A DNA stretch of 43,452 nt from an uncultured Pseudomonadota bacterium (GTDB taxonomy: Bacteria > Pseudomonadota > Gammaproteobacteria > Methylococcales > Methylomonadaceae). The notes under the pieces were generated by a model. The model saw nothing but the letters and a program-made list of their open reading frames with translations, searched no databases and had not been told where the DNA came from. The stretch covers positions 1 through 43,452 of the forward strand of contig CAIQDI010000030.1 of assembly GCA_903870545.1 (NCBI GenBank). The letters run 5' to 3'. Of this stretch, positions 8,229-22,405 are shown piece after piece. The translations under genes were made by a program, and so were the position numbers. Numbering within the stretch: position 1 is the first letter of the stretch; each line of letters starts with the position of its first letter.

Positions 8229-8272
8229 TGCAAAACATTTTTCAAATTTAGTTTTATTAAGAGGTTGATGTA

Positions 8273-8350
8273 TGGTATCTGATTATCTAATGTTTTTTAA
8301 CATTTGTTGGTCTTTACAATGCGTTGTTTCTAATGAAAATTCATTGTAAG
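8273..8350 (+). CDS. Possible small ORF of 25 codons after the cytochrome gene
   Basis: ATG at 8273 with AAGAGG at 8259-8264; the product begins MVSDYLMFFNICW and ends NENSL. It matches nothing I recognise, lacks the Glu-x3-Tyr core of PqqA, and may be the remaining start of a gene cut by the element that follows. Confidence 0.25.
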
Positions 8351-8362
8351 ATGCCGTTTGCT

Positions 8363-8550
8363 AGCACTGTACCTTATGGCGATAACGAAGCTCTTTGTTA
8401 GCAAAACAAAGAGTGAAGCCTTTTTAGCTTCACATTGGTAGATACACCCACTCATAACGCTGTTATGGGATGCAGTTAACGAAAGTTAAGAAAAAGTATC
8501 GGATTTGACTACCCTATGTGTCACCATAGTTGTCGCTTCCTTTAGGAAGC
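8363..8550 (+). ncRNA. Structured RNA, candidate HEARO / IscB-type omega RNA
   Basis: Within about 190 bases there are six local hairpins in tandem: CTCTTTGTT/AACAAAGAG (8391-8413), TGAAGC/GCTTCA (8414-8432), CTCATAAC/GTTATGGG (8451-8469), TTAAC/GTTAA closed by a GAAA tetraloop (8476-8489), CTATG/CATAG (8514-8529) and GCTTCC/GGAAGC (8535-8550). CGATA (8380-8384) pairs with TATCG (8497-8501), enclosing four of them. GGTAG (8437-8441) could pair across that helix with CTACC (8509-8513), a pseudoknot. The segment GGATGCAGTT before the tetraloop hairpin and the ACC before a 3' hairpin resemble, from memory, the IscB omega RNA scaffold. No IscB gene follows. The structure is well supported; the family name is tentative. 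Confidence 0.5.
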
Positions 8551-8553
8551 ATT

Positions 8554-8622
8554 ATGAGCGTTCAATTTAGTTTAGAATTCAAAGAACCAGTCGTCGAAAA
8601 AGCCTTACAAAAAGTTGTTTAG
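8554..8622 (+). pseudogene. Transposase-like N-terminal stub (22 codons)
   Basis: The ORF starts four bases after the last hairpin of the structured RNA, with GGAAG as a possible ribosome binding site. The peptide contains FSLEFKEPVVEKAL, which resembles the first helix of IS3/IS911-type helix-turn-helix transposase subunits (pattern YSLEFKE-VVK-L). It then runs into a copy of the sucC 5' end, where a G-to-A difference makes the TAG stop. Probably a remnant of a mobile element; too short for firm assignment. Confidence 0.35.
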
Positions 8623-8641
8623 CTTGATATTCGTGAATGTT
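8615..8641. repeat. sucC 5'-end repeat, copy A (diverged)
   Basis: A 27-base match, with one internal mismatch, to the first codons of sucC read on the minus strand. The sucC start codon is replaced by TTA here. It forms the junction between the transposase-like stub and the end of the sucC fragment. It shares extra bases (AAAGTTGTTT) with copy C that copy B lacks. Confidence 0.85.
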
Positions 8642-8930
8642 AATTCGAATCAATCGGCAACCCGACGCAATCCGTTTGTTTGGTGACTAAGCGTGTGCCT
8701 AATAATTCGTGCGTAAACGTAAAAACGTCGTCGGGCGTTTTAGCGACTTTTACGCCGCCGACTTTGCCACGTCCGCCTGCATGAATTTGGGCTTTTACCA
8801 CCCACGATTCGTGCGTTAATTCTTGGGCGATTTTTTCTGCTTCAATCGCAGATGTGGCAATGCGCCCTTCGGGAATTGGAATGGCGTAGTTTTGAAATAA
8901 TTGTTTGGCTTGATATTCGTGAATGTTCAT
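8640..8930 (-). pseudogene. sucC: Truncated succinyl-CoA ligase beta subunit (N-terminal 96 codons)
   Basis: The product starts MNIHEYQAKQLF and continues with WVVKAQIHAGGRGKVGGVK, the N-terminal ATP-grasp region of SucC. The frame is intact for about 90 residues to LGTRLVTKQTD-VGLP, then stops where copy A of the repeat begins. Full SucC is about 390 residues, so three quarters including the catalytic region is missing and no sucD follows. A functional sucCD is presumably elsewhere. The start codon overlaps the hicA stop (ATGA), so the fragment may still be translated with the toxin-antitoxin operon. Confidence 0.9.
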
Positions 8931-8932
8931 TG
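8901..8932. repeat. 32-bp direct repeat (sucC start), copy B
   Basis: Identical over 32 bases to copy C at 9378-9409. This copy is the true beginning of the sucC fragment and also contains the stop codon of hicA. Together with copy C it brackets the hicBA genes, as a target duplication or recombination product would. Confidence 0.95.
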
Positions 8933-9160
8933 CATCCGTCTACTTTTTAAAAGTTCATCAACTGATAATCCAATATCTTTTGCAATTTGTCGTAGCAAAA
9001 TTGGCGATAGGTCGCGTCCCGCATGGAATGGAACCGTCGTGCATCTACCATCAGAATGTCGAAACTGTTTGTGAGAACCACGCTGACGAACTTCAATAAA
9101 GCCTAAAATTTCAAGCAAAAGCACAAGTTCACGCGGTTTTAAAACTGGAATACTTCCCAT
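8927..9160 (-). CDS. hicA: HicA-family toxin (mRNA interferase)
   Basis: Small double-stranded-RNA-binding-fold mRNA interferase of type II toxin-antitoxin systems; 77 residues, the usual size. Typical features: the opening KPRELVLLLEILGF, the motif GSHKQFRH with the predicted catalytic His, then PFHAGRDLSPILLRQIAKDIGL. It starts three bases after the hicB stop, an antitoxin-first order. Its stop lies inside the start of the sucC fragment. Confidence 0.92.
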   Translation of the reverse strand: MGSIPVLKPRELVLLLEILGFIEVRQRGSHKQFRHSDGRCTTVPFHAGRDLSPILLRQIAKDIGLSVDELLKSRRMQ

Positions 9161-9163
9161 CGT

Positions 9164-9373
9164 TCACGCCACGGCGATAGTTTGAAGCCCAACAAATTGG
9201 CTTTCAAATCGTGGCGTTCCTTCTTCAAGCAACATTTCAATCACTTCTTTTAGATTCTGATTTAACTCATCTAAACTTTCGGCTTGCGTGTGTGCGCCTG
9301 TAAATCCAGGCACAAAACCCACATACAAACCCGTTTCGGTGCAGCGTTCGACAATGGCAGTATAAGTTTTCAT
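9164..9373 (-). CDS. hicB: HicB-family antitoxin (short form)
   Basis: Antitoxin partner of HicA; 69 residues with the partial RNase H fold of HicB: YTAIVERCTETGLYVGFVPGF then GAHTQAESLDELNQNLKEVIEMLLEE. The C-terminal DNA-binding helix-turn-helix or ribbon-helix-helix found in longer HicB proteins is absent, so autoregulation may differ. The ATG follows directly on repeat copy C, and no clear Shine-Dalgarno is visible. Translation might be initiated through the short frame opened by the sucC start in copy C. Confidence 0.92.
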   Translation of the reverse strand: MKTYTAIVERCTETGLYVGFVPGFTGAHTQAESLDELNQNLKEVIEMLLEEGTPRFESQFVGLQTIAVA

Positions 9374-9377
9374 AAAG

Positions 9378-9409
9378 TTGTTTGGCTTGATATTCGTGAA
9401 TGTTCATTG
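9378..9409. repeat. 32-bp direct repeat (sucC start), copy C
   Basis: Exact repeat of 8901-8932. On the minus strand it places a sucC ATG and about ten sucC codons between the stop of the preceding gene (9416) and the hicB start (9373). In this copy the sucC frame continues into a short out-of-frame peptide over hicB. Confidence 0.95.
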
Positions 9410-22276: not shown

Positions 22277-22405
22277 ATTGGGTTACGCCACCGATTATCC
22301 CGTTTAAAAAACTTGTGATTTTACACGAAGCACCCTTTTAAACGTGACGATAAACGTGAGGATTGTTACAAAAATGAACGCGGATTTATAACATGATTCG
22401 CTTTT

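Follow-up and report, generated by a model that had tools for sequence, protein, structure and literature searches.

A probable non-autonomous IS607-type element with a stand-alone TnpB right-end RNA, and the counterpart of its 5' module inside related tnpB genes

Introduction

About 190 bases (8363–8550) of the analyzed DNA, a stretch of 43,452 nucleotides called the window here, had been predicted to form a stand-alone structured RNA resembling a HEARO / IscB omega RNA, with a guide at its 5' end and no IscB gene. HEARO RNAs are structured, linked to insertion sequences (IS) and to iscB, may occur as orphans and carry the guide at the 5' end. The locus raises the question to which family such an RNA belongs and how it comes to stand without a nuclease gene. 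The best explanation, to which we assign a probability of about 0.8 as a whole, is that positions 8265–8502 are a non-autonomous IS607-type derivative that would have lost tnpA and most of tnpB. Judged from its homologs, the RNA itself is a TnpB right-end RNA (reRNA).

Boundaries and structure of the element

Within the 39 contigs of the own genome (G000), BLAST found a single near-identical copy of window positions 8300–8502, on contig C31 (97%); with a longer DNA query this match spanned 8257–8502 at 95% identity (query 18–263). Positions 8512–8611 matched contigs C7 and C19 independently of this block. Since the two blocks are separate, the element comprises the 238 bp at 8265–8502 (plus strand, as all features below), between a GG dinucleotide that flanks its left side (8263–8264, placed by the empty sites of sister copies) and a GG that closes its right end and the RNA scaffold (8501–8502, placed likewise by empty sites). 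The hairpin GCTTCC/GGAAGC at approximately 8535–8550, the last of six local hairpins in the original prediction, consequently lies outside, in a separate IS fragment at 8512–8611. The 22-codon transposase-like stub noted earlier is the start of this same fragment. Related copies of the fragment were seen in G000 (C7, C19), and several at 88–89% in G212.

The element consists of a left end (8265–8310, the 3' limit being approximate), a promoter region, the reRNA scaffold (8353–8502) and the right end. Several copies and the autonomous element share TTG....ATAGTATC in the left end, where the window copy reads TTGATGTATGGTATC. The scaffold, which scores 144.9 bits with the covariance model R1 (see below; the window copy is among the model's ten sequences), begins with a 5' module at 8357–8405, formed by an outer stem (8357–8366/8396–8405) and an inner stem (8378–8380/8390–8392) around the loop GATAACGAA (8381–8389), which reads GA[GAT]AACCAA in most relatives. 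It is followed by hairpin B (8413–8433; its counterpart in tnpB genes is a hairpin formed by the final codons), the conserved TTGGTAGATACACCC (8435–8449), hairpin C (8451–8469) and hairpin D (8476–8489). The TTGGT of 8435–8449 is able to pair with the ACCAA of the 5' module, with one mismatch in the window copy.

Of the predicted local hairpins, three are present as hairpins B, C and D. The first two recur in relatives with differing sequence, and the predicted GAAA tetraloop of the third was borne out and is the same in the copies compared. A further hairpin, CTCTTTGTT/AACAAAGAG at 8391–8413, was rejected: it is not conserved, being absent from the G046 copies, and competes with the conserved outer stem. 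The proposed pseudoknot GGTAG/CTACC had to be given up: it is not conserved, and its CTACC lies outside the element (8508–8512). The proposed long-range helix CGATA/TATCG survives in part: GAUA/UAUC can form in the window, but most copies read GAGA and only the GA/UC core recurs. The RNAalifold structure of R1 contains a long-range helix of 4 bp.

Folding of 8340–8570 gave −58.1 kcal/mol (z −1.94), and 11 of 200 shuffled sequences folded equally well; because this is only mildly better than the shuffles, proof of the structure had to rest on homologs. When pseudoknots are left aside, the conserved structure has −29.1 kcal/mol in the window RNA, as against −37.7 kcal/mol for the best single-strand fold, which is unlike it. 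On the minus strand, two hairpins in 8391–8433 resemble intrinsic terminators (2 versus 0.2 in shuffles).

Identification of the RNA family

An Rfam scan of the whole window yielded only tRNA and t44 above gathering scores, and a search of 8250–8660 up to E 10 only mir-103 and IS009, both far under their gathering scores. HEARO, the model that the original prediction called for, had no match at the gathering score over the window and none up to E 10 over 8250–8660. Nor did the RAGATH-18 reRNA, which has an Rfam model, match in the window or in 8250–8660 up to E 10.

Homologs of the RNA were found instead at the 3' ends of tnpB genes (L031, L032, L033, L071, L072, L074–L076 and L080); in L031, L032 and L033 a 3' block reading TTGGTAGATACACCC...GTATCGG or similar continues from the last tnpB codons. 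In the family, the scaffold thus sits at the tnpB 3' end and stops where the transposon's right end is reached; the window copy represents the family without tnpB. As the 3' half of the homologs ends both the tnpB gene and the transposon, the RNA is read as a TnpB reRNA whose guide follows the right end, from 8503 onwards, and not as one with a 5' guide at 8340–8362. The resemblance to HEARO given in the original prediction, the several hairpins, the GAAA loop and the fact that the RNA stands alone would suit an orphan HEARO / IscB omega RNA, which is likewise structured, IS-linked and able to be an orphan; however, HEARO RNAs have their guide at the 5' end and are linked to iscB, whereas the RNA studied here has no HEARO covariance-model match up to E 10 and its relatives overlap tnpB 3' ends, so that we regard this identity as having a negligible chance. 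What stands of the original prediction is the kind of RNA: structured, of the guide type, belonging to an RNA-guided nuclease that an IS encodes, and standing alone without that nuclease. The family and the polarity were wrong.

Stand-alone copies in the genome and in the family

All ten sequences behind R1 are stand-alone copies, and the window copy is one of them. The model identified three stand-alone and two cis copies in G000 and, among 237 genomes of the family, 26 matches in 10 genomes. Reading of the loci divided these 26 into 15 stand-alone copies with the 5' module, nine at tnpB ends and two that comprise only the 3' half. The stand-alone copies belong to G046 (six), G000 and G216 (three each), G211 (two) and G218 (one), and contig ends truncate three of them (both of G211, one of G216). 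The original prediction had looked to further copies with covariation, and both were found: G000 has two more stand-alone copies, and the 5' stem covaries across relatives.

A DNA search of the 237 genomes had matches in 11, including a 26-base match in G210 that is probably due to chance; copy numbers from this search, which scored no more than 3 candidates in most genomes, are minimum values, and the R1 search applied stricter filters. A pattern of the 3'-end sequence occurred in 10 genomes and misses the window copy because that copy is one A short. The sequence 3' of ...TATCGG varies among copies, two G216 copies being the exception. In G216, the loci L027 and L038 have different 5' flanks and a common 3' flank leading into a tmRNA-like gene, which may mean two loci or an assembly effect. 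In L059 (G223) and L061 (G228) the 3' half is found at what seems to be one shared place, without a visible 5' module; situated just upstream of a small gene, it could be a domesticated remnant.

The window copy and the copies on C31 and in G216, G218, G211 and G046 (type 1) have a right end of the L074 / Chromatium okenii type, and the stand-alone G046 copy L067 agrees at every position of its 62-nt 3' half with the tnpB gene L074. The third stand-alone reRNA of G000 (C24, L126:1160–1348) is divergent, with a stem of its own and an extra hairpin. It lies between fabG-like and acpP-like genes (named by reading), its right end resembles that of the own tnpB on C9, its outer stem ACAAGAC/GTCTTGT differs, and inspection for a left end recognized none. 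From this we infer at least two separate deletions, one leading to type 1 and one to the C24 copy, that kept both modules; retention of both in separate deletions argues that the RNA needs both.

No relatives of the element were found in phages up to E 1. Three Serratia plasmid matches (41 bases, E 0.4) fell in the IS-fragment part of the query and were taken as chance, as were 56 matches of the 16-letter 5' core in viral contigs, none of which had TTGGTAGAT within 1 kb downstream.

Insertion sites and the predicted guide

Insertion of IS607 elements by crossover at GG is reported in PMC10711439. Empty sites joined at GG were identified for two sister copies, that of the C31 copy in G218 (L127) and that of the G218 copy in G000 (L126). 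The former keeps GG without duplication; the latter also has no duplication, its G-run count being ambiguous by one (joined here at the first G). When the joined flanks were searched in the other genomes of the genus, those of the C31 copy were matched end to end in 10 of 17, with four more matching partly across the junction. For the G218 copy, 13 of the 17 genomes that remain when G218 is set aside had end-to-end matches. Many of these matches are distant and differ around the junction, L127 and L126 being the nearest and clearest. The two sister copies thus exhibit a GG crossover without duplication, as expected for IS607. The 5' flank of the window copy had no match in the other genomes of the genus at E 1e-5. 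In 10 of 11 copies the base preceding the left GG is A or G, which is compatible with the GGG motif that the same source reports for ISXfa1 (PMC10711439).

By reRNA polarity, the predicted guide of the window copy is the 20 nt at 8503–8522, composed of about 10 nt of old flank and then the beginning of the unrelated IS fragment. For the sister copies the guide can be compared with the empty site of a relative: the C31 guide matches the G218 site at 19 of 20 letters, and the G218 guide matches the G000 site at 18 of 20.

These sites also bear on the possibility that the RNA is a domesticated regulator that guides a TnpB-like protein to nearby genes in the manner of TldR, as might be suggested by the acpP-, ssrA- and ferredoxin-like genes (named by reading) that adjoin some stand-alone copies. 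Such a role appears very unlikely to us: the guide is the element's own flank, so that only sites free of the element should offer an intact target, positions vary among the genomes compared, and the own TnpB retains its RuvC residues. TldR, a nuclease-dead TnpB, is defined by loss of the RuvC catalytic residues, whereas all eight TnpBs compared here keep D, E and D, residues identified by motif, without exception, and the own copy has them too.

The autonomous parent and its TnpB

The original prediction had suggested a search for an IscB gene in trans. The candidate nuclease found in trans is an IS607 TnpB: contig C9 of G000 carries an IS607 parent with TnpA and TnpB. Its TnpA passes the IS607 model NF033518 (172.5 bits, cut-off 110), which provides the TnpA-bearing parent that an IS607 assignment calls for. 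Its TnpB, with 373 codons to the stop, scores above the cut-offs of NF040570 (126.6 bits against 100) and Pfam PF07282 (49.3 against 26.3). The nearest PDB sequence to the TnpB is the TnpB-like protein L79 (PDB 9b0l; E 4.4e-18). The second tnpB copy of G000 is frameshifted. At L025:5892–7446, an IS200/IS605 pair of TnpB and transposase directly adjoins the frameshifted IS607-type tnpB.

TnpB relatives at E 1e-25 are present in 7 of 237 genomes of the own family and 4 of 369 drawn from the class (the own genome included in both); in the family to which G413 belongs, 13 of 42 genomes have them. A scan of genome contigs yielded 13 loci with close TnpB relatives, from Methylococcales, Thiotrichaceae, Chromatium okenii, Thiomargarita and others. 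G216 and G211 have stand-alone copies and no TnpB relative at E 1e-25, presumably through loss or assembly gaps.

A counterpart of the 5' module inside tnpB

In the tnpB-bearing relatives the RNA appears in two places. The 3' half is at the 3' end of tnpB; about 640–680 nt upstream, within the gene and before the first RuvC motif, is the 5' half, a stem around GGCGANAACCAAGCC (measured from the right end, the distance is approximately 676 nt in L024 and 640 nt in L074). In the stand-alone RNAs the 5' module is a variable outer stem around GTACCTTATGGCGANAACCAAGCCC. The module inside tnpB could be traced as far as relatives whose proteins are about 50% identical, GANAACCAA being kept in 23 of 25 aligned TnpB loci (all except L107 and L112), and its loop is closed by GGC/GCC in one group and mostly by GCC/GGG in the other. 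R1 also matches the module inside tnpB of L075 and L077, weakly (E 0.002) and at the right position. In L101, L110, L118 and L102 a second block like CTTTGAGAGATACCTCCC was seen 3' of the tnpB stop codon, as if the 3' module had left the coding sequence.

The stem of the module (stem A) was examined in an alignment (A2) of 19 sequences, nine stand-alone, nine tnpB and the C24 copy, that is, 18 of 20 distinct cores plus L068; the near-duplicate L071 and L032, a degenerate tnpB locus whose 5' side does not pair, were omitted, and the tnpB row L055 is a gene with stops. Of its cells, 91.2% are paired, as against 24–50% when the strands are slid. Double changes occupy 34 cells versus 13.2 in shuffled alignments, a value reached in none of 500 shuffles, which ignore relatedness. 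They occur in all six outer pairs, a number of pairs that 318 of 500 shuffles also reach. In the nine tnpB rows alone (A4) there is a single pair with changes to both partners (4 of 9 rows; 482 of 500 shuffles reach that number of pairs), and eight rows of the second tnpB group (A3, without L103 and L105, which are nearly the same as L100) provide modest covariation support (19 of 500). G-U pairs are found in the covarying stem.

A second line of evidence comes from synonymous codons. The set consisted of 18 of the 25 loci; three near-duplicates (L071, L076, L078) and four distant loci (L107, L112, L122, L124) had been dropped. The 11 most constrained of 362 windows along tnpB all lie in the 5' module (best z 3.7), followed by the 3' module. 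Constraint is strong on the unpaired loop AACCAA and on the TTGGTAGAT codons of the 3' half; the codons of the invariant DPG beside the 5' module use synonyms freely. L122 and L124 keep AAC CAA, and L107 and L112 are without the module.

A loop contact ACCAA/TTGGT is plausible. It has no covariation, ACCAA being constant in the module-keeping TnpBs, and the partner letters at the tnpB end differ in L101, L102, L105, L110, L122 and L124. A possible GA/UC pairing near the guide resembles in position the ISXfa1 pseudoknot between U-130 and A-3, for which PMC10711439 describes U-130A and A-3U changes as a test.

The element could also act purely at the level of DNA, with its hairpins serving as transposase or recombinase sites, no guide function, and the stem inside tnpB as a DNA site. 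The ends and the GG insertion are DNA features, and the promoter hexamers of the window copy are weak; against this, G-U pairs occur in the covarying stem, constraint extends to the unpaired AACCAA and the TTGGTAGAT codons, and promoter-like hexamers precede the RNA in several stand-alone copies of differing sequence, which makes a function confined to DNA unlikely.

Proposed mechanism and comparison with known systems

If the element is a non-autonomous IS607 derivative encoding an RNA, as we prefer, it would keep both ends and a complete TnpB reRNA preceded by a promoter region of its own. Stand-alone elements may be mobilized in trans by the genome's IS607 TnpA, and TnpB may load their RNA in trans. 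The approximately 20 nt after the right end would then guide TnpB to cut the element-free site next to RGG, and repair of the cut site would copy the element back, resulting in its retention; cutting of the empty site leading to retention is reported for IS200/605 (PMC11870625).

In the parents, the reRNA would consist of a pseudoknot stem-loop midway along the tnpB message and a 3' part at its end, separated by the RuvC-coding segment, and the stand-alone elements would be natural fusions of the two halves. We put at even odds the more specific proposal that the guide RNA is split by coding sequence, such that an essential stem-loop before RuvC-I works together with the guide-bearing end about 600 nt downstream, either across a very large loop or, after cleavage, as separate pieces resembling tracrRNA and crRNA; deletion of the RuvC segment would have produced guide-only elements more than once, natural single-guide RNAs that parasitize TnpA and TnpB in trans.

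If true, TnpB guide RNAs can themselves be mobile parasites, and an indispensable part of them may lie within the coding sequence. This would bear on how TnpB derives a guide from its own mRNA, on the apparent inactivity that some TnpBs may show when given only the 3' end as guide RNA, and on the possible origin of the two-piece guides of Cas12-type enzymes. The stand-alone elements would also be naturally compact guide scaffolds. In the literature consulted, mostly outside subscription papers, we recognized no earlier description of an IS607 guide-RNA element that stands alone or is non-autonomous, nor of a reRNA part midway along tnpB.

The omega RNA of IS200/IS605 TnpB (ISDra2) overlaps the tnpB 3' end and has a 3' guide, as does the RNA described here, but the transposase there is another one and there is no GG; to our knowledge, no RNA module is known in the middle of IS200/IS605 tnpB. 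For ISXfa1, PMC10711439 describes an IS607 TnpB reRNA whose scaffold is taken to include the flanking G and whose guide is at the 3' end; IS607, GG crossover, 3' guide and a length of about 150 nt are common to both RNAs. The difference is that the RNA here stands alone with its own promoter region, and that its autonomous relatives have the stem-loop about 640–680 nt upstream inside tnpB. The RAGATH-18-derived reRNA, also an IS607 TnpB guide RNA with an AG-rich TAM (AGGAG or GAGGG), is described as independent of coding sequence (PMC11061315), and differs from the RNA here, which has no Rfam match. All eight TnpBs compared have DPG at RuvC-I and an E-x6 spacing before the zinc-finger motif. 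The DPG and the shifted RuvC-II glutamate recall Fanzor2 and pro-Fanzor proteins (PMC10711439), but the TnpBs here are bacterial IS607 proteins and the first CxxC of their zinc finger reads HPET.

State of the window copy and neighboring features

At 8324–8352, just upstream of the scaffold, the window copy has a promoter-like TTGTTT-N17-TAAGAT, weak in this copy and assigned by comparison with relatives; a consensus scan of the window did not detect it and reported two promoter-like sites versus 1.2 in shuffles. At the same place, the G046 copy L067 reads TTGACA-N16-TAGAAT, and in several stand-alone copies promoter-like hexamers lie just 5' of the RNA despite differing sequence.

The window copy has AACGAA where the other copies have AACCAA, and one A fewer before GTATCGG, and is probably partly decayed, either weakened or dead. 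There is an even chance that it is a dead remnant while the family works, which would be compatible with the best explanation: the mismatch in AACCAA, the lost A and the IS fragment within the predicted guide speak for it, and the intactness of the remaining helices and an R1 score of 144.9 bits, versus 158.7 for the C31 copy, against it.

Downstream of the IS fragment, window positions 8640–8930 hold a reversed fragment resembling the start of sucC, followed at 8927–9373 by two small reversed genes resembling a HicA/HicB toxin-antitoxin pair (both recognized by eye). Positions 8609–8645 recur at 8895–8931, and 8605–8645 at 9368–9408. The t44 RNA of the Rfam scan lies farther away, at 22282–22378 (60.2 bits).
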